Below, in pieces: positions 29,786-55,671 of a DNA stretch of 64,000 nucleotides. Source of the stretch: Chrysophaeum taylorii (lineage: Eukaryota; Sar; Pelagophyceae; Pelagomonadales; Pelagomonadaceae); the NCBI GenBank assembly GCA_029834535.1, contig JAQMWT010000421.1, positions 124,001-188,000 on the forward strand, given 5' to 3'. The position numbers and the translations under genes were made by a program. Under the pieces are notes generated by a model that worked only from the letters and a program-made list of their open reading frames with translations, ran no database searches and was not told the origin of the DNA. Numbering within the stretch: the stretch's first letter is position 1; each line of letters opens with the position of its first letter.

Positions 29786-29973
29786 TATGGCGGCACAGAA
29801 AAAAAAAACCTTCCCGACCCCCGGGTGACAAAGGGGGTACTCACCGACTCGTCCTAGGCCTCACTGAACGAGGAAAACACGGACTCGGGGTCGGGTATGC
29901 TCGCCACACACCTTGCTCACGCTCACCAAGCATCTCAACAAGATGGAGAGATGGTATATGATAGTGAGAATAC
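29786..29973 (-). repeat. Terminal direct repeat (LTR-like) of Ty3 element 1, left copy
   Basis: About 188 bases, nearly the same as 36928-37137: I count about four substitutions plus a one-base and a 23-base length difference. The element reads on the minus strand, so this is its 3' end. Confidence 0.75.
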
Positions 29974-29982
29974 AAGTACAGG

Positions 29983-30245
29983 CCAGTAAGTTCACCTAGT
30001 CCCAATCTCTAACCCCAGTAAGTTCACCTGGTCCCAGTAAGTTCACCTGGTCAGTAAGTTCACTTAGTCCAAATCTCTAACCCCAGTAAGTTCGGCGTAA
30101 ACCCACTCGTGCTCACACCCACTCCTTTGAGCTCGTCGCTCTCACCCCCGCCAATCCAAGCTGCTTTGATCCGCACGCGCCGCCAACCCTTGAGTTTACT
30201 CTAAAAACCCCAGTAAGTTCACCTGGTCCCAGTAAGTTCACTTAC
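29983..30245. repeat. Seven-copy AGTAAGTTC array enclosing a dispersed repeat
   Basis: Seven copies of AGTAAGTTC, six continuing AC(C/T)T, most preceded by CC or CCC and several followed by GGTCC or AGTCC. Spacing is irregular. A CCAATCTCTAACCCC-like spacer occurs twice. The dispersed repeat (copy B) lies between copies five and six. Located just inside the left terminal repeat of Ty3 element 1. Confidence 0.8.
30115..30212 (+). repeat. Dispersed repeat, copy B
   Basis: Shares about 95 bases with 1470-1566, including CGCTCTCACC, CGCCAAT, AAGCTGCTTTGATC and GAGTTTACTC. Embedded in the AGTAAGTTC array. Confidence 0.6.
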
Positions 30246-32799
30246 AGTGCGCGTGTAGACGCCGGGAGGGGGCTTATCGGTATTGCGCAGCACGTGTGGG
30301 GTAGGGTGGAGTCGCCGACTCAGAAGAGCATATCCTCGGGGTTGCCGATCGACAGAGAGCCACGTAGAGCTGGACGTGACAGAAGACGGGCTTGGGCAAG
30401 AGGACGCCGACCTCGCGGGGCGTCTGGCCCTGGCTCTTGTTGATCGTTTGGCGTCGGCGGGCCTTAAGGGATACAGGTTGGAGGAGCCTCGGTGACACGA
30501 CACGATCGATCATGTATCTGGTACCGTTGCAGTGGCCGTGCGACGGGTCGAGGTTGCGAAGACTTTAAGCTCGCGATCAAAGTCAGCATGCCGTTGGTTG
30601 TCAGGGAGTCGAAAACTCGACTGTAAAGAGCGAGGCGTCGTCTTCCGACCCAACCTAGTCTGCCGAAAAGAACGAGGGAGTTCTTGGCACACTAGATACG
30701 CGTGGTTCAAGGGTTCACCAAACTCGTCCGTCTCGATGACATGATCTATAGGATTGCGAGAGAGACAGTCAGGGATGCTCATTCCCGGCGACTTCCCTGG
30801 CTTGTAACCCAATTCAGGATCAAAATTGGCGAGCCGCATCGCCCATCGAGCCAACTGCCCAGACGAGTCCTTCGCCTTTCGTAAAAAAGTCAAGTTGCCA
30901 CGATCTGTTTCAAGGATCGTCTTGTGACCTTCGATGTAAGAGCGGAAATGCTCAAGAGAAAGAATAACTGCCAGGAGCTCTAGCCGGCGAGGCTCATAGT
31001 TCCGCATCTCTTTCGGCACAGCTCAGCTCCAATACTCAATTACTCGTTCCTCTCGTGTCACCTTGCCGGTTTCGTCCTTGATTTCCACGAGCTGAAAAAG
31101 ATACGCACCCAGACCATCCTTGGAAGCATCCGAGCGGATCTGAAAGGGAAGATCGTAGTCAGGATGATAAACTCCACGAGAGTCCACCAAAGCTTCGATG
31201 ATCGTGTCCCATGCCGTTTGGCACTCAGGCGTCCACTCAAACTTAACGCCTTCAAGACACAATCGCCTAAGCGGCTCCACAATCTTCGAATGATTCTTCA
31301 CATATCGGCGGCAATAGTTGCTCATACCAATGAAAGATCGAATCTGGGTCTTCGGGGGCGTATTGGGCAACGTACCGGGAATCGGCATCTGCTGCAACGC
31401 TTCTAACGTCTTGGGATTCGGCTTCAAGCCTTCCGGAGTCGAAATATGTCCCAAAAACCCGATTTCATCCTTGAGGAGGTGGAACTTCGAAGTTCGTCCA
31501 CTATATCCTCGCTGTGCTAAATGGCACATCACTTCAATCAAAACTTGTAAATGTCGATGGAGTTCATCCGATCCCAGCATAATATCGTCGACAAACGCGA
31601 CCAAGTCCTTATACATCCATGTGGACAAATCGCTAGCCATCTGCTTACAAAAGAGAGCTCCTGCTGTTTTTGCTCCTAGAGGCAAGCGCAAGAAACTATG
31701 GGCTCCAAGTGGACTAACCATCGTAACAGCGTCCTGGGCAGCGGCGTCCAAACGTAAGTTATGATAACCCCATCGAATATCAATACACGTCCGCCAACGG
31801 CGCATGGCAAGAAAAGCCAAAGCATCATCTTGACGAATATTCGGCCAACTGTCATTGACCAGCTGATCATTGAGCTGACGCAAGTCAACGACAGCACGAA
31901 AAGCATTCGACGTCCCGGCCTCGGCTCCCTTCTTAGGCAGCATCAGTACAGGGAATCCCCACGGGGAGTTCGCCGGTCGGGTGACTCCATCGCGACACCA
32001 CTCAGTGATCTGCTTTCTGAGACACTCGAGCTTTGCTGGCGTCAACCTATAAGGCGTCATCTTGATCGGTCGTGGGTTTGCGTCTTTAAAGCGTAGAGAA
32101 ACCGGTGGCGAGTCCACGGGTCTCATAATCGGATCAAAGAAAGCCCACGCGTATTGCACGCAATGGCTCAACATCATCTTCGCATCATCATCCAGATGCG
32201 GGTTGTCGGGAATTCCTATATCTCGAACAACCTTTTCAACTTCTTCCTTCGTCGGAATTACGACTTTCATCGCATCATTGTCCTTGACGTGCTCGGGAAT
32301 CTGCGGTAACGGTACACCGTCCGCATCGCGCGGCGCATCCTTCCATGGCACATCGAACTTTTCTTCGTATTTGAACCTCACCTCAGGGTGGCTCTTATTG
32401 ATCTTTTCACCTTTGACGCGCACATTCGGCTCGCTCCTTACTTTCGGCTCCTGTTCAGGTTCAGGATCCGGCGGAACGTCCACTTTTGATTTTCGGGGGG
32501 GGGCAGCAGAAAAAGCATGAGCCGTCCCCGGCGCATCTGTTGGGAGCGGAAGCATAGGAACTTCTGGCGGTTCCCATCTAGTGGGATCCTGGAGATCATC
32601 CTTTGACACCCACTTAACGACACGAGTACGCGTATTTAACAGCGGAATCTCTACGTGACGAAAGGTGGTGTCGGAGATTCGTAAATACTGCTCAAAGGAT
32701 CGATCTGTCGGGCTCAACGCGGTCGGCAGGACTTCACCACTTTGGCCGGAACCTCTGGTCACGGATTTGTGCAGATCGACTGCTAAAATCGCAAGAGTA

Positions 32800-33550
32800 T
32801 CTGGTGGGACGACAGATGCTAAATGTTTGAACGAATCTGTCTCAGACAAGCTAGCCCAATCATGATCCACCGGCATCGTGAGCAACTCGGCCGTCATCTT
32901 GAGAGTCAAAGGCTGAGTGTCCGAGCGATGCGGTCCCAAACGAAGAGGAACCCGCGTAACGGTGTAAGCCGTATCTGTTGCTTCTCGGGACGAGCCAAGA
33001 TTATTCAGCTGGAGAAGGTGGTGTTCATGAGCATAACCTAAAGCTGCAGCAAATTTTTTGTTGCATGTTCACACATGTCTTCGGAGCCTCTTGCAAGTGC
33101 AGTGGGTGACTGGAAACCAACAATCGCACGCGAGAGCTCATCAGAGTAGGTGTGATATCATGAAAATTGACGACGTACACGTAAGGGTGTAAACGCGCTA
33201 TATACGAAATAATGGACGCCTCCTGTTCAATCAGCCACATCATGAAGCCAGCCATTTTGCACAGCTTCATCGTCCAGTTAGTGGCCGTAACACCCTTGCC
33301 AACATCTCTGGATGTCAAGTTGCAGAGTGCTGAATGAACGCAGGGCGGCGACGCTATACACATCGATGATGACCATTCCGCTTCAGGCAAATAAGCCTTG
33401 ATCAACCGGAGGGTCGAGTCATATCGTCCACAGAGCGTGTGCTGGACCACAGGTATCTTCGGAATACTCTTCTGATGAACCTTGTTGGCAGCTGATGACG
33501 AGCCAAGAGCAAGGACGACTCGAAACGACGTCCTGCACAACTCGTTCGCT
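32800..33550 (-). other. C5-DNA methyltransferase-like part of Ty3 element 1 (fossil)
   Basis: The minus-strand translation of this interval shows FRVVLALG, ASPPCVHSALCNL (motif IV with the Pro-Cys pair), LIEQEASII (motif VI region), SSRVRLLV (motif VIII region) and, towards its end, LASVVPPDTLAILAV (motif X, compare LGNAVPP). The order and spacing match the better-kept domain at 41830-42705. Approximate limits only. Confidence 0.7.
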
Positions 33551-36500
33551 CGTTGCAGTCCTAAAGTACTTCCTCCGGCGCCGCTGAAGCATCACAACCT
33601 TGCGATGCGTGATCGGCACCCAGTGGACCTTTTCAAACCTTCGGCGAATTTCGCATTCTGTAACTTCTCGGCATTTCTTTTCCTCCTCGTCAGTTCGTCG
33701 GTCGAAATCGTCGTTACCGAGCGATTCTTGACGAGAATTCTTCTTCTTATCGGCAGAAGGAGACGCCTTCTGCACTGAGCTCAAAAGCATCAGTTCGGGA
33801 GCCGCATTGTCTTGAGTAAGATGGCTTGCGACCGAAACAGTGAATGATAGGTTAACTTGTTAGATTCGGCTTCACCATCCTTCGTTAAATCGTCGACCGT
33901 CTCAGCATTCAGCTCGTCATCAAAACGAACAATATCGCCCAAAAGCAAGGACTTCACCTTGAGTGATCACGGTCGGCACATCCTGGGTAGAGGATATCGC
34001 CACTCGAGCTGCGAACTTATCATGATCCTCAGGAGAAGAACACATTCCTTCGACTACCCCGAGTTATGAAAACTTGCCCAGTTTCCACGGGGTCTGAAAG
34101 AGCGACTGGCACGCAGTAGGTGCGCCCAGGCTCGACCTTCATCGTGCGCGCAGCATAGGCTATCACTTCATAGGCATCGCTGTTCGAACTTTGAGAAGGC
34201 GTAACTGGAGGAACTCCCCAAGTCGTCGAAGCTCCCGCTCGTTTCGGCGGTGGACGCTGGAGGTCTTCAATCTTGCACAAGCGAGCGTAGACTCGGTTCT
34301 CAACTGTGCTCGGGCTTTGTTGCATCGCATGGTGCTGTTGCCCATAAACCTGAACTACCACGGGATTGCTCTCGTCATAAGTTGTTCTGAACGTCAAAAT
34401 CGGAGAATCTACTCGTCGATCCTGCACCTTTAACTTCTTGCGCCCGTAAGCGACTTGTGTGCGTAGAAACGCAATGCGATTCCGCGGGTAGTCCACTATG
34501 GCTCCAAACACCCGAATATCGCGCGCTCCCAGCAAAAATAGATGATTAGTATCGGCCACAATAGCAACAACTGGAACGGCTACGTCGTCCGCAAGCGCAA
34601 TCCGCAATGCGACCCATTTGTGGATAGTCGTTTTGTTCAATCCTGACCCATACAAAGTGCGCTCGACTGGAAGATCGCCCCGGTCAAGGATGATGCTATC
34701 CTTTTCCAGTTTTTCAACCATCCCACGACAAATATAAGAGACATCAGCCATTCCATCCACGCCTAAAGTCGTTGCAAACTTCGGCCCGTCTCGTCGTCTA
34801 TAAATATGACCAACTATAAACGTAAGGGTACCAGGGTCCAGGCAACCGATGGTGATGAGGTCTTGCTCGATCTTTTCCCCATCGCTCGGCGACAGTGCAG
34901 TGTGATGACATCGTATCTCCGGTTTCGCATCGCCCGGCATCTGCATCGTCACCGCTGCTATATCTGGCGTTCTACATCTCGCCGCTGAATCTATATTGGC
35001 GCTCGCCGCTTCGGTTGCTTCCTCATTCCCCAGTTTCGCTGACAACAAATTCTGACACTTCTCAATCGGAGGCACATATATCTCCTCCTTTATCTCTTCT
35101 GGTAATCGTCGTTTCTCGTCCATCAAATCGGACATTCCCGTCAACTTCTCCTCCATCGGCGCCGCTGTGGTCTGCTCTGCTGCGACCAAAACTGTATCGG
35201 CTAGAACATCGGCTAAAACGGCTAAAACGGTCTCGGGGGGCCCGTAGGAAAAGAAGACGTCGTCCCCGACGTCAACTCAAAAGGTCTAACGCCATCATCG
35301 TGAACTGCCCTGCAAGACATGCACATTGACGAATGGGGGGACACTGGAACCTGCGGCATGGGTTCGTCGGTCTCCGAATCTGTGTCTTCCCAGTAGTGCG
35401 GAGAATCCCAAGTAGCATCTGACATTGCTTCCACATACGATGTAGAAGGCCACCGAACGACCCGAGCGTTGGTGGTATTTTGATCCTGTTACAAACGATG
35501 GCTGCTCGTTACAGCGACATCGGCAACATCATCGGAGACTCGGGCAGGGCGCGCCGTCGGGTAAAAGACAACCCCCGACATTGGCGGCGCGTCGCATAAA
35601 GATTGGAACGCGAAAGTTGCGCTCGAATGTCCCGAACTATCCTGATATCTGCCTCCGTCATACTCGTCATCGTAATGTCGATGACGTCGACGCCGGCGCG
35701 AATTGCGACTAGAGCTCCGGTGACGGCAAGGACTCGGGCTGCTTTGAGCAGTATGGGCTTTTCGATCAGGGCTCTGGCATCGATGTCGGCGTGACGATCG
35801 TCTAGAAGGTGATCGTCCGTCTCGCTGTCGTGTAGAAAACGACGTAGTATCCTTGATGCCTCTGACCTCGCTCACCATGGTCGCCATTGTGGTTCCAAGA
35901 TCGGTGAGGGCCGTTTGAATTTCATTAGAAGGCCCCGATCCGTGCGTGGCGTTCGCATGAGATGCATCATCACGCTTCGCCCAATCGGACCGCGATATGG
36001 GCTGCTTCTTCTGCTTACGAATTCGCTTCCACATCGCACAGTAGTAACGATCCGGATCGCGGTTGCAAACTACGCGACTTCCGTGTTCATCTTCATCATG
36101 GGTGGTCCAGAAGAACCCACAGTGCGGGCACGTTCTCTTGCCCCACAAAAAAGAATCTCGTAAGATCAGCGGATCCGTATTCCCAGACGGCTTATCCGCA
36201 TCTTGCTTGCCAAAACGCTCAGCTAATCGTTCATTTTCGCGACGTCTCCGCTCGAGGTCTTCACGAAGTCGACTTCCGGCTGCAGATCCGCGCTCAATAG
36301 TAACACGCTCGCCTCGGTCCGGAGTCGTTGGACTCAACGGCGAAAAAATGGCAGTATCCGGAGGCATATCAGGGGGCACGTCAGCAACGTCGACTGCCTC
36401 GGTCTCTCTTAATTCACCTTCCTCGCGGCCTATCTCAGGGGCGGCGGGAAGAACTGTAGGAGACTCTTCCTCACGCACGTCTGCGTTTATCTCCATACTG

Positions 36501-36907
36501 TATCAAATATCGATCAAGAATCTCGAAACACGTCCGGATCCGATCATTCGAAGTAATTCACGTCGATTCCAACAACGCTATCTGTCGCCGAAAAAACAGC
36601 ACTCGCGGAATTCCAGTCCGCTGGCAATTCAAAAATGCCCGTGGGTAGCGATCCCACTCGCTAAACAGCATCCACCGTTCGGCTATACCAAAATCAATTC
36701 CCGGGAGAATGCGCTGCGTTTTCCAACTCGCACGCGCGTTCGTCGTCACTCAGATCGTACGAACACAAACAACGTTCGCGTATATTCTCAACGCAAACCG
36801 GTCCAATGGAACTCCGTGTGCTTGATCAGGGCGCACGTACAAATCCGGACCACGTAATACAACACGTACGGCAGCACTCGCTCGTAGGCGACCGATGTAG
36901 TCGCACG

Positions 36908-36925
36908 ATCTCATATCCTCCACCA
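36908..36925 (-). promoter_or_regulatory. Probable tRNA primer-binding site of Ty3 element 1
   Basis: Two bases inside the right terminal repeat the minus strand reads TGGTGGAGGATATGAGATC, beginning with the TGG that pairs to a tRNA CCA end. The complement looks like a tRNA acceptor and T-arm. This fixes the orientation of the element. Confidence 0.6.
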
Positions 36926-36927
36926 CG

Positions 36928-37137
36928 TATGGCGGCACAGAAAAAAAAACCTTCCCGACCCCCGGGTGACAAAGGGGGTACTCAACGACTCGTCCTAGAC
37001 CTCACTGAACGAGGAAAACACGGACCCGGGGTCGGGTATGCTCGCCACACACCTTGCTCACGCTCACCAAGCCTTCAACATCACGCTCACCAAGCCTCTC
37101 AACAAGATGGAGAGATGGTATATGATAGTGAGAATAC
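36928..37137 (-). repeat. Terminal direct repeat (LTR-like) of Ty3 element 1, right copy
   Basis: Matches 29786-29973. Carries an extra 23-base tandem duplication around GCTCACCAAGCC. This is the element's 5' end on the minus strand. Confidence 0.75.
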
Positions 37138-37272: not shown

Positions 37273-37607
37273 CACAGCAGTAATGCCCATTTCCCCCACT
37301 TGCCTGCCAGCCACCTGACTTACCCTGATTGTTGCCCTGGTATTGCCCTTGCACTTATGGGGGGGTGTCATCTTGACACCCTCACCTGCGCTTCTACTGA
37401 ACTGAACCCAATGTACCAGGCATTTGTATTGCTTTCATGCTGTCTTCTTGATATTACCCTCATTTGATTGTCCGATTTCGTGATGGCGTGAGGTATTACG
37501 CTGAGATCGGGCGTGTGGTGGTTTCACCCGCGGTTCGGGTTGGGAGAAAGGGTTGTTGAGGCCCCTGGTCCGGCCAGGAGGGGCGGGTATCTGAGAAAAC
37601 CACTACA
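37273..37607 (+). repeat. Left LTR of Ty3 element 2
   Basis: About 335 bases. About 94 percent identical by eye to 46602-46932, with one five-base and one single-base length difference. Ends in CCACTACA directly before the primer-binding site. Confidence 0.88.
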
Positions 37608-37608
37608 G

Positions 37609-37628
37609 TGGTCTCAGAAACGGGAATC
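37609..37628 (+). promoter_or_regulatory. tRNA primer-binding site of Ty3 element 2
   Basis: TGGTCTCAGAAACGGGAATC begins one base after the left LTR. Its complement, GATTCCCGTTTCTGAGACCA, has the look of a tRNA T-arm, acceptor stem and CCA end. The donor tRNA was not identified. Confidence 0.75.
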
Positions 37629-37654: not shown

Positions 37655-40600
37655 CTCCTGTTTTTCGGCGGCGAGTCGGTTCGTAACGGTCGAGTGAGTG
37701 CGAAGCCGACGCATTTGTGGGTGAAGATCCAGAGGATCACGGGTACCGCCGCGGGGTTCATTTTACGTGATTCGGATCGAACGGGGAGCGGAGTCACTAC
37801 GACTCATTGAGGCAAACATCGTAAGACCTACGAGGCAAAGACAGAGTAAGACCTAACTTAGCTCGCGCGAGGCAGACCACCTCCCTGACGGCGAGCGACA
37901 GCACCGGGAAGGCCGTCCATAGTCTTCACGCGCAAGGCAAATACTTCCGTAAGTCCAGCGCACCGGTACAGCGCGCAGTCAGACGGCTGCCGGCAATTGT
38001 CGTCTGACGAAAAGAATACAACAAGTGAGTTGTGAGCGTCCGGATTAAGCCTATTATCCGGGCAAAGCGCGGTCATGGCAGAGAGGCCAATGACAGAACG
38101 ACCGCAGTGGTTTCGGGACGCACAGGAGCGTCTGCAACGATTCAGTGCAGGGACTCCATTTGCGTCTATTGGAAGAACACCGTTCAGTACGCCCTTTCAA
38201 CGGCCGGAAGCCGAGGAAAGCGGCATCGGAAGAGAGGCAAGATCATCTGATAGCCTCGACAGCCCCCCAAGCGTGGTCATCCTTCCGGATCCACGCGCCG
38301 GCGAAGGGGGAGCTACGGTTGCGCCAGACGCAACTTCAAGACCGGGTGAGCCGACGTTCCCGTACGCACGACCCTACGAACGTGCGATGAATGCTACGGA
38401 GTCATCTCGAGCGGAACCCGGACCGTTTACGGCGATGCGTGGACCAGAGGAGAGTGCACCTCCTAGGCCACCATCTGCGAATACGAGAGCGACAGATTTT
38501 CGCGTGGATGTCGACCCCGAGGTTCTGCAGACCATCGCCGAACGATTCGAGATGTACCAGTCGCAGATCGAGCAAGTCATACGTGAACTTGAGAGCACCC
38601 GCCGCGACGCTCAACAACAACGCTCAGAAGTGGAGCGGCAGCGGATCGACAACGATCGACTTCGACGAATGGTGGAGGAATCCATGCGGGCGCATGCTCG
38701 AGAGGCACGGCCAACCTCTCCGGATGCTACTCGTGTTACGCCCGACGATGATGACGCTGTATCGGCACTGACCGATGATCAGCCACCGCGAAGTCGACCG
38801 GAGCCTACCCCGCACCATCATACTGACCCCGGTTCGGCGCGTCTTCGTGACGAAGAAGAGATACTTCATGTCAAGAAGGGAGCTGCTGGTATGACACGTA
38901 TCACGTTTTCGAATCTCACTGGGCAAATTACTAAGGACCGTGATGAGGTGGACGCGTGGTGGATGCAGTTGCGGCGTATGATGGAAGGCAAGATTGGTAA
39001 ACCCTCAATAGCGATGAACGTGATTGGAGGCGAGTATCAACTCGCCACTATGGAAGCTTATCGCAAATGGGAAGCTGAACGGCCGCAGATGTGGAAACAA
39101 TACAAGGATAGGACCATCACACTGAGAGAGTTGCGCCAGCATGATGATGACTGTCTGGATGCTATGCAAGAGGCGACGAAGCTTCCTTGTCCACCTCGGG
39201 CTACGGTTGAGGAGCTTGAACGTGAATGGTTCAATTTACGGCAAGGGAATTTGTCATTGAATAAGTATATCGCGCGATGGGTGCAGAAATTCGGCCAGTG
39301 GAGAGCAATGTCAGGTCGCGATACTGATCCGGCTGCGTTCCGTTCGCACTTCATTGCTGGGCTCAATTCTGAGCGCTTGCGGACGAGCGTCGAACTTGCT
39401 CAGGCCTCACCGCATATGAAAGCATCTACTCTCACCCTCAACGATGTCATTCAATTGACCATCCAGATTTCCAAGATTCTGGAAGCCAACCCTACTGCCA
39501 ACATCGAAGAGGCGATTAAGAAGGAGAAGGGAAAGGAGCGCGCACCACGGATGAGGAGAGAGCAGCAGCAGCAGAGGCAGCAGTTGCAGCCAGTCCAACG
39601 GGTTGGTTATGTTACTGACTCGGGAGTTGGAACCTGGCTACCACAGGGGATAGATAACCATACGCGTCAAGCAATTACGACGTGCCTCAGTTGCGGCCGG
39701 CATGGTAGTTTTAACCACGACAACGGTGTGTGTCCTGTGCCGGACAATCCCTCGAGGAAGAGGCGTGCTGCTCAGACGTTGACGAATGCGGGTTTTCCAG
39801 CAACGCCAGAGGGACAGGAGCAATACCGACGGACGCTTTTAGCTGCAGCAGGACAGGCTTCAGTGACTCAGCTAGCGCCGCGCGTTGTGCAACAGCCGCA
39901 GGTGGTCTACACAGCAGCACAGGTGCCAGGTGCAGGTCAACAGCAGCTGGTTGCAGGCACTCAACAGCGTTTGGTTGCAGGCATTCAACAGCCGGTGGTC
40001 CGAAGGCAGCCCGCAGTGCAGCGGACCGCTCAGACCTCGGTGCGCCTGGAGGATCTGACTACGACTCTCAACACGATGAACTTGATTCGTCAGGCACAGC
40101 AGACGGCTCCACCGGTTAGAGAGCAACAGTCTCAGAGAGCGAACCCTAGCCAGCGCAATGATGGTGTCGCCGCTCCGTGGCTTGAAGTGCTTGGCGAAGA
40201 TCAGGATGACACTAAGCGAGCGGACTACTGCACTGTGCAGTATTCTGAGCTCATGGAGGGCAACGTGTATGACGATGACGATGTTGGGGGCGATGATGAT
40301 AGCTTCTCTGCAGAAGGCTATTTCCCTGGTGACCCCATGGAACCTCCTTCCTTTTTGGTCATCACTGAAGATGCATGGGTGGAGGAGCAGGAGCAAAGTA
40401 CCGAAGTGACTGGAGTAGCAGCTAGAGTTCTCTCGGAGGACGAAGATAATCGTGACGAATTGGGGTATACGATTGTTCGTGTGGGACAAGATACCTTGGT
40501 TGCCATGGATATAGTGCCACCGAGGGACGACTGTGCCGAGCGCTATGCCGCTCACCCTTCCATCTCTTCGGATTTCGAGAGTTTCTGCCCTCAGACTGCG

Positions 40601-41829
40601 TTGAATACCACTCAGGATCCCGACCATCGTGAAAATAAAGCCGTAAGGTACGATGGCACGAGATCCGCCTCTTTGACGTATGTGCCTGTGGCTGTCTCTT
40701 CGCTAGATGGTTCGAAATATTCCATCATCGCTGCCGGTTTGGATGGCATGGCTGATTCCCCCTACATCGATCACCGCTTGTATCGCAAACTTGATCGTGA
40801 CGGCAAAATCATCTATCGTCAGCCACTCCCTACGATTCGTACTCTAAATGGGTCAGGAGGTTCGGGAGCTGCTATTCGAGAATGGGTCATTCTCCGGATC
40901 TCCTTGGTGCCGACGACATCCATGCTGCTCATGTTCTTCGTTGGTCAAACGAATGGGCAGTTACTATTAGGAGCACGAGAATTACGACTCTTGGGTACGA
41001 TTTTGGATTATGCGACAGAGAGAGCTATTTTTCGGCGTTCTGAAGTGACCATTGGAGTTCTCAAGAATCGGACTTCCGCCTCGCCACAAGACCAGCATGG
41101 AATTGTCCTTTACAATGATGCATTCGATGCGACTCCGCAGGTAGTGCAGATGTTCCCGACAGCTAAGCTTGCTGTGCAATACGGAAATATCCAAACTTGG
41201 ACGCCAGTTGGTAAACCGTGGAGTTATGACAGTCTACTGCGCTCTATTCGTATCAGAGCGAGTCACCATCACGTTCCTCCCGGTGATCAGACTGCTGAAA
41301 AAGCGGAAGACCAACTTAAATGCCCTGCAGACGAGGAAGATATCATCCCTCATTTCGCGTACGTGACGAGTACTCGATTTCTTCTTCCAAGCCAACCGTA
41401 CTTCTTGGAGATGGAGTGCGATGTGCCGCTGGAAAAGGGTCACGTATTCCGACCTCATCGGTCACTCCTCCAAGATCTCCGCCTTGTACCTGGTTCCTAT
41501 TCATCGTATTGCGCTGACGAGCCCAACGAAGTTCATGTGGCTGTGGAGCACATTGGTGACGAACCCATTGGTATCGACCCCGAAGTCCCGGTGGTCGAAG
41601 GCGAGATCATGCCGCATGAAGGATGTGTCAACATGCAGCTAGAAGCCACTGATGACGTGTGTCATGCAACTCTTACGGCTGCTGTTGACGACGATGAAGT
41701 CGAGGAGGATGTCTTGAGTGACAGACCTCCTCCTCAGCCACCTCCAGATGAAGAAGTGAAAAAAACACCAGAAATGGAGATGGAGGCGACTGCTAAGGAG
41801 CTGCTATCTAAGCACGCCTCCTTGGTTTG

Positions 41830-42705
41830 GATACCCATCACCTACACCTTTGTCGTCGTCTACTTTGCTGGCGCTGGAGGATCAACGTTGGGTATCCGGC
41901 GATGCAATGAGCTATATGGCAGTTCATTTCGCATTGTCCTGGCTTTGGATGCTTGTCCTCAAGCCCGAGCCACCTTTGAGCTCAATTTTCCGAAGATTCC
42001 CTATGTTTTGCATGAGTTGGGGAAATCTCATCGTCGTACATACGACTTGGTGTTGTCGTATTTACATTCAGATTTTTGGAAGCATTCTTATTTTCACGCC
42101 AGTCCGCCGTGTATCTATGGGTCGACTGCCAATTTGCACTACAGGGACGCACGCAAGGGCGCTACTATTACTTCTTGGGTCCTGCGTCATTTCCGCAACG
42201 CACCTTATGTGATTGGACGATGGACGCTCGAGCAGGAACCATCAGTGATCCCTTTTGTGCATCACCAATTTTATGTGCCGCGTATTGTCGATTTCTATAG
42301 TATCACACCAGAGTTGCTGTGCTCGCGCACGCGCCTACTTGCGTGCAATGTTCGCTTGAACCTGCCGTTATTATCGCGTGTACCACCGAATTTAAGGGAC
42401 CGTTTTGGGCCAGCGTTGGGATTTACAGGTGGTCACCCGCTCATTATAGTGAACAGTTTCTCATCTACGCGCCCGGCTATCGGCCCTGCCTTCACGGTGA
42501 CGCGCAATAAGCTCCACCTAGGACCTCATTTCTCGAACACCCGTCCACTCACGTTGCAGATGCACCAGGAAATTATGACCGTTCCTGCTACGTGGCAATG
42601 GGGTGCGACAGTTTCAGAGACAGCAGCTATGAAGATGCTTGGCAGTATGGTGCCACCCGCGACTATGACGCGGATTGCGCTAGCAGTGCACAATTCGTTT
42701 GACCC
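41830..42705 (+). other. C5-cytosine DNA methyltransferase domain inside Ty3 element 2 (fossil part)
   Basis: About 290 codons between protease and reverse transcriptase in the same frame. Conserved motifs in the order of the Dcm/DNMT family: motif I VVVYFAGAGGSTLGIRRC (AdoMet loop); motif II-like VLALDACPQARATF; motif IV FHASPPCIYGS with the Pro-Cys catalytic pair; a motif VI-like LEQEPSVIP; motif VIII-like CSRTRLLAC; a target-recognition-sized gap; then LTLQMHQEIMTVP and motif X LGSMVPPATMTRIALAV (compare LGNAVPP). The domain would methylate cytosine using AdoMet. Retroelements carrying such domains have, as I recall, been reported in dinoflagellates and charophyte algae. Whether this protein was ever active cannot be told from sequence. 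Confidence 0.85.
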
Positions 42706-45700
42706 TTCACTTCGAAATTTGGGTAAGTTGCGGAATATTGCGACGACTACGCTAGCCCAACCTGATCACCATATTCTACGGTTTTCACCTTTTGCTGTAG
42801 AGTCGCGCATTCCAACGCTCGACCCTGCCACTCGAAGTGTGTCATGGATTGCGCCCGATGAACTCTATTCTCCTGCGAGTCCTGCACCATCAGCTGCTGC
42901 CCCCACCACCCCGCCACCACCTTCAGTTACATCGCCTGGGACGGCTTCATCTTTTGCAGGGGGCACCGTCGCCACTGCTGTTATGCAGAGCAACCAAGTC
43001 GACAACCAGCCCTCCGCAACTGCTGAAGAAGAAGGCACCGCGAAAGAGCGACCAGCGTATTTCAATAAGTACGACGTTCCGTGGGCGGACGCGCCTCACG
43101 ACGAACATGGTCAACCTTTACCGGTGATGCCTCCTCATTTAGCGGATCAGGAGAGCATGCAGGTCATCCCTCCGACCGTCGCGCAGGTCGAAGAGGTGAT
43201 GACTGAATTGGGTATTACAGAGCATCCTGCTTTAGATGATGACGAGAAGCTGATGATGAAGCATTTAATCTCGTATTCGTGGGCATTTTTCGATGATGTG
43301 ATGAGACCTGTTGATTCACCTGAAGTGACGCTCCGGTTCAAAGAAGAGAACCCGACTCCCGTCAAACTCTCGCCATATCGGTTGTCGAAAGAAAAGATTG
43401 AATGTTTGCGGATGCAGATTGAAGCATGGACCCGAGACGGAGTTATTCGTCCCGCGAATTTTCCGTATTTTGATGTTGCCTAAGAAAGGTGCTGAGCCTG
43501 GCACTTCCAATGCTGAGAGCAGCTGTCGACCTACGGCGCCTCAATGCATTGCTCAAGGATGATAGCTGGCCGAGTGTGAGCATGGCTGACGCGTTGATGT
43601 TTCTCATCGACAAGTTTTGTCGTTCCAGTTTGGATATTCGTTGGGGCTATCACAATTTACGATTGTCGCTAGATGCACAAGATGTGGTCACCTTCACTAG
43701 TCCTCTGGGAGCGTACAGCTACATGCGTCTACCTTTGGGAGTCAAACCAGCCGGAAGTTTGTTTTGCAAGCAGTTGAACACTGACTTGTCGCAATGGCTA
43801 TATCGTGATCTCGTGGCATATATCGACGATATTCTCGCCGGTCACGCAGATACAAAGAATCACTTGCAGTGCCTTGTGCAAGTTATTCCCCATCTCGCCT
43901 TGAAGGGGTACAGCGCCAAGATCAAGAAGATTCATTTTATGCAAGAAGTCATTGAGTTTTTGGGTCATTTATCTACCCCGAACGGACTTCTTCCATCACC
44001 AAGGTCTTTAGAAGCCATCAGACACATGCCAATTCCTGGCACTTTGTCGGATGCTGACCCTAAGAAGCAAGTGCGATCTTTCCTTGGAATGGGGAGTTTT
44101 TGCCGGCGTTATGTAAGGAATTTTGCGAAAGTTGCAGAGCCATTAAGACAACTGACGTTGCCGGACGTGAAATTCAAGTGGACGAAAGAGTGTCAGGAAG
44201 CTTGGGATGCCATCATCGAGGCTATTGTCACTTCGAAGGGCGTCTATCATCCTGATTACTCGTTACCTTTTTACATTCGAACTGATGCTTCCGCGCATGG
44301 GTTGGGTGCTTACCTATTTCAAAAGTACCAGTCGTTGACGACGATGGAAGAGAAAGAATCGAAGAGAGAGTTATCGAGTACTGGAGTCGAACCGTGCCTA
44401 AGTCGATGAGGAAGTACGATCCTCGGCGCTTGGAACTCCTCGCAGTACTCTCTGCTCTCGAAAATTTCCGATTTTATATCGAAGGTCATCAGACGAAGTT
44501 AGAGACGGATCATCGTAATTTAACGTTTCTGCGGGATTCGAATCATACGTCTGGACAGTTAGCACGATGGGCTATGCGGCTTGCTGCGTTCGACCGGGAG
44601 CTCGGATACAAGCCTGGAAGCTCCCCTGGCATGCGTATTCCGGATTGTCTGTCGCGCAACCCTATCGACAAATTGATCGAGAAAGATGAAGACGGGGAAC
44701 CGATCAATGAAGCTTTTTTTTTCCAAATCCCCACCCCCACCGACAGCTTGCTTCACTTCTCTTCTCTTCGGTGACGATGCCTACCTGACGGACAGCGGAC
44801 CCACCGCAGCTAGTAGCAGTTAGTACGCGACAGAACGTACAGCCAATTCTCGAACGAGTCTTGACTCCGATCAAGCGGAGGATCGGAGGATGAGATAGCG
44901 AAAGATAGCGAAAGAACAAGCTGAGGATGAAACATCAGACGAAAGCTCGACTCTGAACAGAAAGATCAAGACGAGCAGTCATCCGTACCATATGAGGTTG
45001 ATGACAACGTGTTGTATAGGTCGATGATTCAGATTCTCAACGTCTTATTGTGGTCCCTCAGTCTCCAGAAGCGTGTGATCGCCATGCATCACCGAGGATT
45101 GTTCGGAGGCCATGTAGGACGAGACTCCACAGCGAATCAAATCTTAGAACGGTATTGGTGGCCAAACGTCTCATCATCAGTTAATGAGTTCGTCAATGCC
45201 TGCATTATTTGCCAGAAGATTCGATCCACCATGCCTACGTCATGGCTTGCTCTGTCAACCGAATCGCGTCGGAGATTGCTATGTCCTAGGTATGGATTTG
45301 ATTGGACCTCTGCGAGGCGCTGACCTGTACACGTACATACTCGCAATGTACGATGCAGCATCGCATTTCTTGAAATTAGCTCTGATCAACACAAAACATG
45401 ACTATTCGATTTTGAACGCGTTTGTGGACAAGATTTTACTTGAGGGATGTCTCCCACGGTGCATAGTCACGGATAATGGAAATGAGTTCGCGAACAGGTT
45501 ATTTCGCACGTTTGTTCGTCAATTCAACGTACGTTATCGTACTACCCTTCCGTATCACCCTCAGAGTAATCATACTGAGCGTGTCAATCGATTCATCAAA
45601 GCCTTCTTGCGAGCTGCGATCGATGAACAGCGTCAGCCAGATTGGTCGAATTTCCTCCCATATGTGTCATTCATGTACAATAGGATGTACATTCCGGGAA

Positions 45701-46601
45701 CGAAGATTTCACCTTTCATGATGCGTACTGGCAAGCAACCCCTGTTACCACCCGATTACAATCTTTTGAGTGAACAGCGTGATCTACCGCAATCACGTCA
45801 TCAGATTTTGGTGGACTTTAAGAACAAGTTTGAATTTTATAGTCGACTCGTTACACGAGCTCACCAGAAAGCACAGGAGAGTCAAAAACTCAACTATGAT
45901 GCCCACCAAATTGACATCCAGTTTTCCCCAGGTGATTATGTTCTGCGTTTCGTGCCTAAGACACGCCACAAGCTACGGCCCATTTGGCGCGGACCTTACA
46001 TGGTTACTAGAAAGATCTCTCCCGTCGTTTATGAAATTCAAGACGTCAACGACGATCATGCTGAATCGGTTGTAGTATCTGTACAACAGATTCTGCCTTT
46101 GAAAGTGCCAAACATCGACTCTTCTTCAGCCCCTCTGCATTTACCTTCGGACCGCGACCGGTTCAAACATGGTAAGTTCGTGATTTTCAGGGTGAAAGGA
46201 CGATCCAATGCGTGGAAGAAGCGTATCTATGTTGCCGAAGTCTACGAAGAATATGACCACGACAATGATACAGTTGCGCTTCACTACTATACCGATTTGG
46301 GACCGCGCGATGATCCTCGCGTCTTTGATCCTACTAAGCCTCTGGCTGAGCGACGCTTAAGACCAGAATACAAAGATGCGGACGGAGGTAGCTTCACATG
46401 CCTACGACCCAACATGGAGGGCTGTGAACCCTGTGTGACTGATTTTCGCCCGGATGAAATCGATGTCCTCGTCACTAACTTCGGTCTCCACAGCAACAAA
46501 GTTCCTGCTGATGTAGCTGAACGAGCTTATCGTACCATTCGTGAGCGTGACCTTTGTCACCCTTGAAGTCGAGGACGACTTCATCTCAAGTAGGGGGCTC
46601 C

Positions 46602-46932
46602 TGTGGCAGTAACGCCCATTTCCCCCACTTGCCTGCCTGCCACCTGGCTTACCCTGATTGTTGCCCTGGGTTTGCCCTTGCACTTATGGGGGGGGTGTCA
46701 TCTTGACACCCTTACCAACGCTTCCACTGAGCCCAATGTACCAGGCATTTGTATTGCTTCCTTGCTGTCTTTTTGATATTACCCTCAGTTGATTGTCCGA
46801 TTTCGTGATGGAGTGAGGTATTACGCTGAGATCGGGCGGGTGGTGGTTTCACCCGCGGTTCGGGTTGGGAGAAAGGGTTGTTGAGGCCCCTTGTCCGGCC
46901 AGGAGGGGCGGGTATCTGAGAAAACCACTACA
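46602..46932 (+). repeat. Right LTR of Ty3 element 2
   Basis: About 331 bases, beginning TGTGGCAG and ending CCACTACA, preceded by a short purine-rich run (GTAGGGGG) that may be the polypurine tract. Pairs with 37273-37607. Confidence 0.88.
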
Positions 46933-49617
46933 GCACAACGGTCGCCTTAATAGCTTAGATATTCTGGAATGTCCGGCAATCATAGCCTGCACGCACGCCT
47001 GCCACGAGATGCGGAATCCGGGTCCCTCGGGGCAATTTTGCGTGCAGAATGAAGTCTGGTTTCAGATATTTTTCTATGGTTCCTCCTACTCAAGGCGGGT
47101 CTTAGTCAGACGCTTTTGAAAAAAATCGAACTTGCTCAAGGACTTGGAGCAGACCCTGTAAGCACTCGAGACAGAGATATCGAGCACGCGAGGACCTCAG
47201 GCAAGCTCCAGACTCCGGCCTATTTTGTTATTCAGCTGCCAGCGTGAGTCCTTGGCCCAACGATGCGCTGGTAATAAGACAATGACATAGTACACCAAAG
47301 ACACGACATTTCAATCGCCCCGGTCCACTGATAAACCTCATTTGGCGAGCACGAAAGCAGAAGATGTTCCAACTTCGAGGATGAAGGCAAGCCTCTTCTC
47401 CACGCTGTGGTAAAAAGGCTGCCGGAGATTCAATCCGCCGGTCGAGCCGTTCAGGCGCATCTTATGCGGTTGTCTCGCTGCTCCTTCGCGTTCGAGAGCC
47501 ATACGGGTGACGCCTACACTACGTGGATCGGCTGCGCTTGGCACCGGCGGATTGGCGACATGGTGCGCACTCAGCTCGCGCGCTGCGCTGCTCTGTCTGG
47601 GTGCCATCAGATAAGAGCGCGTCGGTGTTGCCCACGAGGAGTCCGGCCGGGAAGCCGGCGGGCACAAACGCGTTCTCATAGACAACGCCCCACAACGCCC
47701 GAGGTCTGGTGGTTCAAAGTTCACGAAAGGCAATAAAACAGAAACTGCACTCTCGCTCATCTGAAATGACAACAGGAACAAGTAAGAAATATGAAGTAAG
47801 CCGCAGCGCCGGCGTGTCGCAGGTGAGACGCAAGCTGCTGTACTTCAAGCAGAGGCGGCGCCCGACGAATGCCGATGGAAACGCTTCCTTCTCTGCTGGC
47901 CTGCCCTATACCCGACTGCACCGATCCTTGTCCTGTTTGCGCGTGCTCTTCGGCAAATCGACGTGACGAGTACGTCGTCCCCACAACGCACCCTCCCTCG
48001 GTCGGCTCATCTATTCTCGGCTGCTCAGCGCCTCGTTTTGTTGTCACCCGTCGTCTCGAGCCATTCTCAACCTTAGGATAGGACAAGATGAAGGTCAAAG
48101 GGGCGCGCAAAAGAAATCGCTACAGGTCAGGAAAAGCGGCAGACTGGCACGCGCGATTGTGGTTGCGGCCGCGGAACGCTCGCTTGACGGAAAACAAGAC
48201 ACGACGCGCGGCACGTCCAGTTGGGTTAATCCGAACTCGCGGGGCGATGGGTAGCGGTAAACGACAACCGAAAGTGACAAGAGTGGATCGTGGCACAGCT
48301 CGAAGCGATTCCGCAAGAACCTGGTACGGCGGGGGAAGATTCGGCAATGGCAAACGGGGACGAGAAAAAAAAGTCCAGCGCGCGCATTCCGGCGGATACG
48401 CCGACAAGGGATAGTAAACGCTGCGCCAAGCGCACAGACGGCGCAAAAGAAAATACAGAAGCAAGGACGTCACTGCGAAAGGGTCCAGATGCCCAGCAGG
48501 AGGGGAGGAAGCGCACGGGTCCGTGTCGGCGAGAGCGGGCAGACGGGAATATCGAGGACGAAGGGAATTTCAACGAGTGGCATGCGGATTCAGCAGGCGA
48601 GTCGGATGCGGAGAAAACGTCAACGATTACGTAGAGTTGGAACGTTGCCATTGGACAAATGTGTGCGCGGCGCGCGAGGATAAAATCCAAAGGGCGACGG
48701 ATTTTGCAGCACGTAGCCAACGTAGCCCGTGCACCGAGGCGGGTACGGAGAAATTACAAACGAGAAATGAGTATGCCCGACACCTTGGGCGCGACGCTAC
48801 TACTATTATTAGCGTCGGCCGGCTCTTTCATCGACGCCGACGTGAGGTCTCCAGCGCAATGAGCAAGTGTCACATGGCGTCGTTAAAAAGAGCATCGCGA
48901 TGGGCGAGAATCAAGTTCCTTACTTAATACCCATCGTACAGATAACAAATCACGAGCGCTTCTCTGGTAAGAGCCCAAAGCTTTCCTGATCGAACATTTT
49001 CGCTGCATCCACCTGCTCAAGTCGACGACTTCCGATGAAGCCCAGCTCGATTGTGAAAGAAGAGCGTGGAAGTTGGAAGCGAGCGACGGCACACTTGAGA
49101 CCAAACTAGGGCACACGAGTGACCAGTCATCAATTGCCCGAGATGTCTTTGCTTCAATCGTACCTGGTACGCGCTGTTCACCTTCATAATTTTCACGTAG
49201 TCAGCTTCTTCTCTTGGATCCATAACTACGAGGTGTTATTTAAAATCTCTCTGAGGGTCTTCCCGTTCCTCTCAAGTTATTATTATTATTAGTCGTCCCC
49301 CGCTGGTAATTATTCGGTCGTTCTGTTGCGTTGCACTCTATTCTCAACTCTATTTCCCTCCTCGCTAACTTCGGTTTATTACGAAAATCACCAAGGTTTA
49401 TTACGAAAATCACCAAAATGAACTTGAACTTGTCTACAATGAATCGTGACCATTCTACGGCTGCCAGTTAGTTTGTCTTTAAATGTCGACTGTTAAGAGG
49501 GGGGGGGGTGTGGGGAGCATGAAGGGTGTGGGTGGTGCCAGTTAGTTTGCAATGAAAGCAACGGGGTTTCTGCACAGATGACGCGAGCGACGTGCAGCTA
49601 TTTAATAGAGTAGTGTT
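46933..49617. other. Intergenic stretch without a supported gene
   Basis: Open frames at 47338-47781 (-), 48290-48634 (+) and 49017-49223 (-) show protein-like stretches but no family motif and no splice context. A tandem copy of GGTTTATTACGAAAATCACC is at about 49373-49415. The motif GTCGACTGTTAAGAGGGGG at 49485-49503 recurs at 17078. TGCCAGTTAGTTTG occurs twice around 49462-49550. Confidence 0.5.
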
Positions 49618-52600
49618 TTAGAACACATCAAGGGGTGGTGGTGCCGTGGTGCTCGGCGGGTCCGAGGGACTCTCCGCGCCGTCACAGGAAGACGGCGTGG
49701 TCGACGTCGATGTGAAACATGCCTGGGTTTCATTGGCGGTTGAATCCGGCATCGGGCTAGGTTTCAATGCAGGCAACACTGGGAGCATGGCGTCGAGCGC
49801 AGCTCCCAGTTTCGGCGCATCGTTGGGTGATTTGAGGGTCGCACGTTCGAGAGCGCTTCGATAGTGTTCGGGGAGGGAAGAATCATTCTCCGATTCACAG
49901 GACGGCCTGCGGTGTTGAGCCGACGAAGGTAACTCGAGCTTGCGACGTTGCACGAGTTCTTTCTCTCGCCGCTGCCGCTGCAGAAACACTGCCTGCTTGT
50001 TCGCGAGCTCGACAGCTCTCGCTTCAAGGCGCCGTGCCTTGAGGAGTGTTTTCGTCCTTACTCCGTTTTGCTTGCACTTCTCGTTTTCGTACTCGGCGTT
50101 CTCCCTGGCTCGTGCGAGCGCTGTGCCTCGATCCACACGGGCGGCGTTGCACAATGAAGCCAGCGCCGTCGCTCGGGCCTTGCGCAATTGACTAAAAGCA
50201 GCTTGCGCGGCGTGACGGCGCGCGAGTGAAACATGCTGCGCTAGATGATGCGCGAGAGCATTCTCACTCTTTCGTCGAACGACCGTCATTCGGGCATCAA
50301 CCGCGCTGGCGCGCACAGCGGCCACTTGATTCTTTCTTTCCTCCAGTGCCGAGAGTTTGGCGTGCGCCTTTTGTTCCTGGTGCTCGCTCTTGGTGACGCG
50401 AGCGCGTTGGGTGTGTCGTGCACGGGCCAAAGCGACGCTCTCTCGCGACGTAGCGTACTCTCGTCTTCCGCGATCGACCACCTCCTTCCTAAGTTGGACG
50501 TGGCGCCTCTTGCGCTGCTCGAGCATGGCCGCTTGAAACAGACGCTCCTGGGCCCATAGTCCGGAAAGTTCGGCAGCCCGATGCGTAGCAGCGTAATATA
50601 CCAATTGCGTCACTTCCGCATCGCGGCTTTCGTTGTCTTTAGCGTGGCTTGCGCACTCGAGTTTGATGGTGCTTTGTTCCTTGATCGAATCGGAACTTTG
50701 TCGGTCTTCCGTGAGTGCCATGCTCGTGTCGTTCCAAGACGCGGCGTCGGCTGCCGTACTTCTATCGATGGTGCCGTCTTTTTCGCACTCGTCGATTGGC
50801 GAGACAGTCGGGATGACGCCACAAAATATGGTACCCGACGGCCAAATATCTAAGCGACGAGCATTTCCTGTGTCTGATGGCCGACACACGGATGACGGGC
50901 TGCGAGGACCCGCTTCTGGCAAAGAGATCGCCTTTAAAGCGTGACAATCGTCGTCCTTCAATATGCGACTTCGATATAAAAACTGGCCTTTCAATGGAGG
51001 GGGCGTACTGGGTGGTTGTGGTTGTCTCTCTGGCCTATCCGCGATGTTTTTGTCTGACGAGACGACGCTCATTATCGACTTCCATCGAGGGTGCTTCACG
51101 GTGTTTCGAATCTCTAGGTTCCGCATGCGTCTATCGATCAGCGCATTCTCCATTTGTATCTTTCGAACTTTCTCGTGCATTATCCTTTCAAACTGCGCGA
51201 CGGCGGCACGGTGACGCGCGTTTTCGACTGTGTCTTGTCTGGGATTGGAGCTTCGGCGGTCGCCTTCTTTTTGGCGCACGAATGGCCCGGGTGGCACGAC
51301 GGAGACTTCGCTTTTATCCAACTCACAAACCTCGGGATCGCCACAATTCACGTCCATCTGCGCTGAACAGTCATCGCAACCGCGAAAGGGCAACGGCACG
51401 TGCGGGCAGAGTCTTTGGCAGAGTAGCTCGATTTCAAGGTGATCGCGGGCAGTAATCTTGCGCTCAGTCGAACGCCACGTTGACGGGAGCGTGCCGTGGA
51501 AAGAGGTGCAGTTGTCTAAATCATGAACTTCAGCCGAGAGCAGAGGCGCATGGTTCCCGCGACGTTGATCCCAAGTCAACATGAGCACCGCCGCGAGCCG
51601 CGAACGGGCCTCGACGTCAGATGCGAAATCCAGCGCCACGAAACGCTGCTCAACCATTTCACAGCCACTATCTGTCCATTTCGAGAAGGCTGAAGTTGCA
51701 CCGACATAACATGCTGTACCATGCTTTCGCAGAATAAGCCTCGGCTGTGCCGCCGAAAATTGCTCGTCGTCGTCATAGTGGCGGGTGGTACAAACGCGAT
51801 GAACCTCAATGCTCGGTCGGACGCCTTCCGTAAGCAAGGTCGCGATGTCTACCAATCGGCCATGCTCTGGCTCATACGGCGGCAAGAAAGGAAGCGTCCA
51901 TCGAGGTGGTCTTTCCCTGGCATCCTTTGGTATTCGACTCCGCAACATCCCGGGTACTGACCTCAAAGTAGCACACGAATCCTCGTCGATTCCGAATTCC
52001 AAGGTCATGGGGGCGTGCGGATTACTTGTAGCTTTCCTAATCCCAGTCCATGGACTTCGCGTTGATGTAAGCAAGTAAAACAATTCCGGCTCCATGTACA
52101 GGCGAGGGGATTTACAAGCCATCGCGGCTCTCTTTAGAGCGACCAGCTGTATATGGCGGCGCCGCATTGAGTTGAAGCCCCATGCTCGCCACCAGCGCGC
52201 AATCGCAAGACAAGCTCGCTTTTGAATGGCCGCCGCGTAAAAGTGAGTGCTCAAAGACTTCCTGGTGGCCATACCGCGCCACGTTGCTTGGATCCTAGAA
52301 GCTGGACCGTGAAGAGAGTGCCACAAGATTGCGGGGAGAGGTCGACCTTCGCGCATTGCCCTGGCTCGCGCGTGACGAACAGCACGTAGCAGTTCCGCTG
52401 CGGAAGGGGCGCGAGCCACGTGCCACCAGATAACATTGCCAACGTTGCGGGCAATATTGGGTTTGATTTGTTCTCGAACTGGTCTACAGCCGCGCCGTTT
52501 GAGCAACGCGCGCTTGGGCATCGTCGAAAACAATGCGCGGTCGAAAGCAAGCTTCGCGGCTTCTGGAGAGCCCCGTGAGACAGCGGGCCTCTTACCGTTT

Positions 52601-54630: not shown

Positions 54631-55671
54631 CGTCCGCTGAGAAGACTCAGGACATACCTCAAGTCACTTCAAGTATCCAATCGGTGGTACGTTAGGATCC
54701 ACCAAAATCTGCTGACACTGTGACAGCACGCGTGGTCCGCCGTGGACAGGGTCGGATAAGAAAGTTCGTACGAGCCGTTAACTATGTTTCAGTTTGTACT
54801 AAGACATACTCAACGGATCGCTGAGCTATGTTCATTTGTACTCAAGCAGTATGTGCCGCCACGCCGCGAGATCGTCGCGATGGAACTAGTCCCCATAGTG
54901 AAGTCGGCATCCTTTCGTCCCCTCACGCAAAAAAAGGAAAAAGCCCACGCGTTGTAGGACCCGTCGTTGCGGCGCGGGCTAGTCTCGTTTTCTTATCCGA
55001 CCCTACCGTGGAGGCGGCCTTATTATTCGAATAATAAGCGTGCAAAAAACCTGCCGAGTTGAATCAAGAATGGTGAGAACAGTGAACGCGAAGCCAACAA
55101 GCTATCTAACTATAGGCCACCCAGCTCATGGGGAGTAGGCTACTATTCCCTGCGCCGTGGCGCGTGGGCGCAAAGAACGGTCGGAATAATCGTCCACAAG
55201 AGGCGAGCGAGCTGGGGGTGCACGTGAACATCACGTGCGTCTGTAATCCCCGCCATGGGGCTATATACGTAACACGCACGGCACCTTCTCGAGCGGTGAT
55301 GTGCCTGCCGGCCCCGTCCGCCCCTACGTGTGCGAATCGAAGAATGGCGCGACGCGCATCATGGCGTCTGTCTATTCTTGTGGACAGACGCACGGAAGGG
55401 GGGCACAGCACAACATGGCCGGCGCGACGCGCGCAAGGTGGGTTTGCGACGACGATGGGGAGTGAAGGGTCGAGAGGGTGGCGTGGCTTAGGAAACCAAG
55501 AGGGCGAGGACCAATATTGAAACGGTAACGGGCAGCGGCGTGTCCGGAAAGAAGGAAGGCACAAAGGGAAGGCACTTCAGTGAATAGTGGCGGAAAGGAT
55601 AAGGGAGCACATCGACGCAGTTTAGATCGGCATCGAATAAAGAAGAAAGAGGCGCGCTTTCATCATCAAGC
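54631..55671. other. Intergenic stretch
   Basis: No supported gene; short open frames only. It must hold the promoter of the LRRIQ-type gene and the 3' end of SBPase, both on the minus strand. Confidence 0.55.

Follow-up and report, generated by a model that had tools for sequence, protein, structure and literature searches.

A Ty3/Gypsy retrotransposon located in the 64,000-nucleotide stretch of DNA analysed here (the window) carries within its gag-pol polyprotein a domain whose sequence makes it almost certainly a C5-METHYLTRANSFERASE homologue, and its identification as a C5-methyltransferase captured by the element is supported by a profile match, the order of its motifs, the selection acting on it and, with a poor model, a fold search. 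Judging from the sequences of its relatives in the same genome, the methyltransferase is a regular domain of this Ty3/Gypsy lineage and sits after protease-like motifs and ahead of the reverse transcriptase (RT).

Architecture of the window element

The element lies on contig C421 of an assembly that comprises 697 contigs and 70.8 Mb, and its coordinates are given as window positions. It has the features of an LTR retrotransposon: a 5' LTR of 332 bases (37277-37608) and a 3' LTR of 328 bases (46606-46933), both on the plus strand, form a direct repeat with 94.8% identity over 327 aligned columns (K2P 0.054), a 4-base target-site duplication (CACA) borders them on the left (37273-37276) and on the right (46934-46937), and a candidate primer-binding site beginning with TGG, recognized by its sequence only, lies right behind the 5' LTR (37609-37626, plus strand).

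A plus-strand frame of 1815 codons (38036-43483) is open from gag into the start of RT, which places the methyltransferase in the same frame as gag. It begins with a gag-like region (38036-40700), in which a script found a CX2C...H...C knuckle-like motif and for which Pfam gave only a sub-threshold gag match (13.5 bits against a cut-off of 24.1), followed by protease-like motifs (DGMADSPYI ... LLLGARELRLLG, 40739-40996), by the C5-cytosine methyltransferase domain (41771-42766, core about 41850-42700), delimited by its PF00145 match, motif positions, invariant columns and dN/dS, and by an open linker (42767-43393) leading to RT. The segment formed by RT (RVT_1) and the start of RNase H (43439-44406) crosses a frame change, RNase H (RT_RNaseH, 71.7 bits) occupies 44286-44771 in the other frame, and the integrase (44931-46563), distributed over two frames, comprises an H2C2 zinc-binding part (63 bits), an rve core (32.5 bits, cut-off 32.6) and a p58_C-like end (27.8 bits, cut-off 27), all on the plus strand. 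Because RT, RNase H and integrase sit in changing frames, pol of this copy is interrupted, with its methyltransferase part open. The order RT, RNase H, integrase is that of Ty3/Gypsy pol, and the same order (RVT_1, RT_RNaseH, Integrase_H2C2, rve) was found in L052, an element of the sister subfamily A' described below.

These data bear out the preliminary description as regards a plus-strand Ty3/gypsy LTR element with the methyltransferase in frame with gag. Its placement of the domain between protease and RT holds on the RT side through the RVT_1 match, and on the protease side by motifs only, consisting of a D-G-M-A motif (40739-40768) and an LLLG motif (40961-40996); a Pfam profile search gave no protease match in the window element or in the L052 frame. 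The usual retroelement protease motif is D-[ST]-G-A; the protease-like motif reads D-G-M-A in Gypsy subfamilies A and A' (window, L052) and D-G-G-A in the Copia family B (L017).

Directly upstream of this element, in the opposite orientation, lies a second Gypsy element that carries a methyltransferase; it belongs to subfamily A' (29800-37072, minus strand) and had been missed in the preliminary description. Its frames are interrupted, its direct repeat (29800-29931 and 36941-37072) is 98% identical over 132 bases, and its RT shares 92% identity with that of L052. Its methyltransferase region (32700-33679, minus strand), likewise interrupted, retains PPC and EQE and is 66-82% identical to the L052 domain in three stretches.

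Identity of the methyltransferase domain

The preliminary description had listed C5-methyltransferase motifs in family order and proposed a profile search as a check. All the strings it named were located in that order, as FAGAGGSTLG (41864-41893), ASPPC (42098-42112), LEQEP (42227-42241), CSRTRLL (42320-42340) and LGSMVPPA (42638-42661), and the search bore it out: PF00145 matches 41771-42766 with a score of 38.4 bits (E 1.3e-9, against a cut-off of 22), split into two stretches, the better one at the motif IX-X end. Motifs I, IV (PC), VI (E), VIII (R.R), IX and X are present in canonical order. Over 14 aligned rows the F-G-GG of motif I, the acidic residue of motif II, the PPC of motif IV, the R.R of motif VIII and the P of motif X are invariant and the Glu of motif VI nearly so. 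At 36-46% identity, Cys, Glu, the two Arg positions and the SAM-binding glycines vary little or not at all. In C5-methyltransferases a Q usually follows the PC of motif IV and motif VI usually reads ENV; the domain departs from this in having no Q after PC and EQE instead of ENV.

Among NCBIfam profiles no match above cut-off was obtained for the window domain, the dcm profile reaching 22.6 bits (E 7e-5) against a cut-off of 100.65, a value below which the host DNMT5 (64.6 bits) and DNMT2 (39.8 bits) also remained. The sister domain of A' matched PF00145 at 26 bits when searched alone and at 19.1 within its whole frame, whereas a member of a third subfamily, A'' (L060), gave no Pfam methyltransferase match; in a wider alignment (A5), 16 of 22 members matched PF00145 at E 0.01, with no other family listed. 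Profile-profile comparison with four phage or bacterial enzymes plus the host DNMT2 and DNMT5 gave a probability of 94 (E 9e-8) over motifs I-IV, and with the four phage or bacterial enzymes alone a probability of 43. An alignment of the A and B domains with DNMT2, DNMT5 and the same four enzymes was visibly unreliable outside the motifs.

Searches of PDB sequences were weak (best E 0.23 with the single sequence and 0.13 with a profile), and AlphaFold models were poor, with pLDDT 37 for the window domain (14 rows) and 45 for its sister in L052 (22 rows). Using the L052 model, a fold search (query TM-scores 0.26-0.40) returned C5-cytosine methyltransferases in 48 of the 50 rows shown, the remaining two being an African swine fever virus capping-enzyme domain and ZCCHC4. 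With this poor model DNMT2 chains took ranks 1-3, a C5-carboxymethyltransferase, MET1, DNMT1 and HaeIII scored nearly equally, and DNMT3 came further down. The DNA cytosine C5-carboxymethyltransferase 8yf3 recurred among the weak best matches of both A and B domains, which is too weak a signal to imply a carboxymethyl donor.

A chance match or a contaminant contig was rejected as the source of the domain, its copies being scattered over numerous contigs. Neither the A nor the B domain found a relative in the viral contigs searched, nor did A among the genome contigs searched, and a phage search with the window domain returned 33 records at E up to 10, of which the ten listed had E 2-8; for this reason we name no donor.

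Distribution of the domain in three Gypsy subfamilies

A genome-wide survey of related elements, also suggested in the preliminary description, revealed a repetition of the domain that the description had not noticed. At least 129 stretches matched the window domain (subfamily A), many of them at 92-99% identity, and at least 122 matched the sister subfamily A', whose methyltransferase and RT are respectively 41% and 61% identical to those of the window element. Two A' stretches lie in frames of more than 3000 codons; in one of these frames, that of L052, the methyltransferase is followed without interruption by RT, RNase H and integrase. The third subfamily, A'', accounts for 22 stretches among 122 rows listed, the other 100 being at 44-48% identity and many of them A' places. 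These counts are lower bounds, as the best candidates were scored, and some copies yield more than one stretch. The contig pairs C6/C268, C10/C297 and C25/C521 have identical matches at almost equal positions and are probably duplicated or haplotype contigs, so the counts are also slightly inflated.

Subfamilies A'' (L060, L062) and A' (L052) share 82% identity in RT but 45% in the methyltransferase. Either the methyltransferase evolves far faster than RT between these two subfamilies or it was exchanged.

The association between the two domains was also followed from the RT side. At 89 of 136 RT places a listed methyltransferase lies at most 2.5 kb upstream, a count made with incomplete methyltransferase lists (seven small A stretches of the 129 and 99 of the 122 A' stretches omitted, the A'' list unused) and with one fragment omitted from the 137 RT places. 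Fourteen regions were chosen from RT positions and read, seven at 60-64% RT identity and seven without a listed methyltransferase partner: methyltransferase sequence was present upstream in all 14, often broken, and in L059, L063 and L089 only its end was found, in the right orientation. No RT relative devoid of a methyltransferase was thus found among these 14 regions, which represent related Gypsy RTs and not distant Gypsy families. Trees of the methyltransferase and RT from 11 copies recovered the same groups A, A' and A'', the outcome to be expected from a single acquisition that preceded the split of the subfamilies.

Selection and decay

Between the window copy and L053 or L054 the methyltransferase showed a dN/dS of 0.066 (dS about 1.6), compared with 0.054 and 0.017 for RT and with 0.24 for the linker, the latter at a lower dS (0.6). 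In three deep A' pairs the values were 0.038-0.054 for the methyltransferase versus 0.010-0.017 for RT, with saturated dS, and five deep pairs gave no ratio at all, dS being saturated. Values were higher among five recent A' pairs (0.17-0.39 for the methyltransferase versus 0.06-0.10 for RT), and the contrast with the linker was slight in the two of them with a linker value (0.19 and 0.21 for the domain versus 0.21 and 0.41), whereas two very recent A pairs reached 0.63 and 0.87 (RT 0.66 in the one measured). Among the best 30 A copies, 20 contain no stop, PPC is kept in 29, EQE in 27 and RTR in 29, and 16 are both stop-free and in possession of all the motif strings checked. This pattern indicates that the domain is kept by selection over longer times, less strictly than RT, and that single copies decay after insertion. 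On these sequence data, the Gypsy methyltransferase is very probably functional and under selection.

A second methyltransferase in a Copia family

Searching the genome with PF00145 yielded 57 places, corresponding to two host genes and 55 members of a different family, B, 28 of which were assigned by DNA comparison with the B domain and the other 27 by coordinate overlap with B stretches. Family B, located elsewhere in the genome and absent from the preliminary description, comprises at least 105 matched stretches. A copy read across (L017 and L051, contig C96) contains a DGGA protease-like motif, the methyltransferase, integrase-like sequence and RVT_2. The Ty1/Copia arrangement, with integrase before RT and an RVT_2-type RT, was seen in this one copy, where RVT_2 (135 bits) in L051 follows a weak rve match (18 bits, cut-off 32.6). 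The methyltransferase of family B has the motifs PCQ and ENV and reached a probability of 73 in profile-profile comparison with the six reference enzymes; its PF00145 match in L017 (35 bits) covers profile positions 39-163 only. Its dN/dS was 0.10-0.19 in nine of ten pairs and 0.31 in the most recent one, next to 0.12 and 0.18 for the neighbouring coding parts in the one pair measured.

No similarity between the A and B methyltransferases was detectable by profile-profile comparison (probability 0.05). From the sequences, two independent captures are likely and the simplest reading; extremely diverged descendants of one capture are possible. Another Copia remnant is present in the window itself (60002-60517, plus strand), where the sequence is 31% identical to the L051 Copia frame.

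Host methyltransferases

One of the two host genes, L001, encodes DNMT2 (best match DNMT2, 1g55, E 4e-39). The other, L002, is a frame of 2086 codons that matches 7r76 at 482 bits, an entry whose molecule name is DNA repair protein Rad8. We take 7r76 to be Cryptococcus Dnmt5, and L002 is accordingly treated as the host DNMT5. Genome searches with PF00145 and dcm, of limited sensitivity, found no host enzymes other than DNMT2 and DNMT5. The absence of others is weak evidence, because the PF00145 search, in which the best 123 of 474 candidates were scored, missed the window's own domain among the matches listed, and because intron-split genes match piecemeal.

CpG content and possible targets of the enzyme

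CpG transitions between copies were 1.18 times other C:G transitions in 313 of 435 pairs, and 1.27 times over all 435. The observed/expected ratio of CpG was 1.04 in the window element, 1.26 in L052, 1.00-1.08 in B stretches and 1.27-1.30 in the window outside the reported element, a stretch that includes the second element. So weak a CpG decay argues against methylation at CpG that is both strong and lasting. The enzyme may act on RNA or at sites other than CpG, or its mark may be short-lived.

We tentatively propose, from the analysis as a whole, that the domain acts on the element's own DNA, a reading to which we would give somewhat less than an even chance. Translated within the gag-pol polyprotein, the enzyme would be packaged in element particles alongside RT, where it could methylate cytosines of the element's own cDNA or of a fresh insertion, and the host DNMT5 might then copy the mark laid by the element. 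The element would gain in that its cDNA is taken for host DNA or is tolerated through quick, mild silencing. The shielding, mimicry of host marks and tuning of silencing suggested in the preliminary description are likewise hypothetical. Taken jointly, a captured C5-methyltransferase and self-methylation form a reading that we hold possible rather than probable, and the hand-over of an element-written mark to DNMT5 is doubtful. DNMT5 is a maintenance enzyme in Cryptococcus and Phaeodactylum. According to the available portion of PMC9998398, CG methylation disappears from Phaeodactylum when DNMT5a is lost, and the TE genes overexpressed after this loss are mostly Copia-like. An element-written mark could accordingly be kept by the host. 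The portion available of PMC5890265 reports that, when put into yeast, two of the SymbioDIRS DNMTs set CG methylation de novo, that cDNA self-methylation was proposed for the Symbiodinium DIRS elements, and that the Symbiodinium LINE and Klebsormidium Gypsy enzymes had no activity in yeast, a result its authors called inconclusive.

Other roles have to be weighed against self-methylation. The domain could methylate RNA, in the manner of DNMT2, its substrate being the genomic RNA of the element or the tRNA primer, which would be protected or marked for packaging or priming. This would agree with the weak CpG decay and with the DNMT2 chains heading the fold search, and RNA methylation is discussed for SymbioLINE in the accessible text of PMC5890265; but the four other kinds of enzyme named above had nearly the same fold score, with a poor model, and the domain adjoins RT, which makes DNA, so that we consider an RNA target rather unlikely. 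We find it less plausible still that a free protein methylates the host genome, blunting or saturating silencing or setting the CpG landscape. The several hundred matched stretches in 70.8 Mb and the detection of only DNMT2 and DNMT5 otherwise would fit such an action, and an effect on the host methylome was proposed for Symbiodinium (PMC5890265, in the part available), but CpG shows no global depletion, as the ratio outside the reported element, second element included, indicates.

The departures in motifs IV and VI from the usual residues could mean that catalysis was lost and that the domain serves only nucleic-acid binding or particle structure; given that the catalytic and SAM-binding residues listed above are retained at 36-46% identity, this strikes us as improbable. 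Another Rossmann-fold domain, or an unselected passenger sequence, would be compatible with the lack of an NCBIfam match over cut-off and with the poor AlphaFold models, but PF00145 scores above cut-off with no other family, the motifs keep their order, the fold search points the same way and the deeper pairs have a dN/dS of 0.04-0.07, which leaves this reading with hardly any credence. A wider scenario, in which Gypsy and Copia, two unrelated lineages in one alga, each captured their own C5-methyltransferase after the protease and in which de novo cytosine methylation comes mainly from the elements, to be copied by DNMT5, the only other DNA-type enzyme detected in the host, also appears improbable. 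The underlying puzzle is why parasites silenced by cytosine methylation should carry an enzyme that writes it.

Relation to known systems

The preliminary description regarded such captures as known from dinoflagellates and charophytes, and this agrees with the available portion of PMC5890265, which in 2018 reported DNMT-bearing retrotransposons from Symbiodinium and Klebsormidium, among them an LTR Gypsy with DNMT3 in the latter. The KnitGypsy-Dnmt3 element of Klebsormidium nitens resembles the one described here in being an LTR Gypsy element with several copies, a DNMT in the Pol polyprotein and purifying selection, and it differs in that its enzyme is a DNMT3 relative, whereas here the domain is divergent, and in having DIRS-like repeats where the window element has plain direct LTRs and a 4-base duplication (same source, as far as available). 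As with SymbioDIRS-Dnmt3 and SymbioLINE-Dnmt of Symbiodinium, a single algal genome contains DNMT copies by the hundred, several classes of element carry them and key residues are retained, but there the carriers are DIRS and LINE elements, the LINEs having their DNMT encoded by an upstream ORF, and here they are Gypsy and Copia LTR elements (PMC5890265, in the part available).

DNMT3 in LTR Copia and DIRS elements is mentioned in the portion of PMC12344493 at hand; the likeness to family B lies in a DNMT inside Copia, although the enzyme is called DNMT3 there, whereas that of family B is a partial PF00145 match (35 bits, positions 39-163). The Dam-type methyltransferases of DIRS elements (PMC5890265 and PMC6338049, each in part) likewise provide a retroelement with a DNA-methylating accessory enzyme, but this is an adenine enzyme, structurally unrelated (PMC5890265). 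In the part available, the review PMC6338049 cites PMC5890265, pools adenine and cytosine enzymes and names stramenopiles among the hosts, and a stramenopile case may therefore have been noted already.

As far as literature searches show, the following aspects are new: the coexistence in one alga of Gypsy and Copia elements whose C5-methyltransferases are dissimilar; a domain common to three diverged Gypsy subfamilies; a plain LTR structure; and a host in which otherwise only DNMT2 and DNMT5 are detected. Another host, with apparently two captures at a comparable place (after the protease), would suggest that the benefit is general and not an accident of dinoflagellates. If DNMT5 is the only DNA-type enzyme of the host, this alga would offer a clean test of de novo methylation supplied by elements and merely maintained by the host.

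Host affiliation and other genes

The host is an alga, as follows from the 84 matches of the chlorophyll-binding family in its genome. The best of them resembles multi-repeat LHCI chains of one entry and, after these, single-domain antennae with names such as iFCPI, VCPI and FCPI, and these sequence matches make a plastid of the red lineage (ochrophyte or haptophyte) likely. The stramenopile affiliation surmised in the preliminary description is consistent with this as far as a red-lineage-plastid alga is concerned, the matches pointing no closer than ochrophyte or haptophyte. Light-harvesting antenna genes occur in tandem arrays with equal or nearly equal scores on contigs C88 (35406-41267) and C539 (24843-30127). 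In the window, an open frame of 1681 codons (49618-54663, minus strand) encodes leucine-rich repeats and a weak IQ motif.
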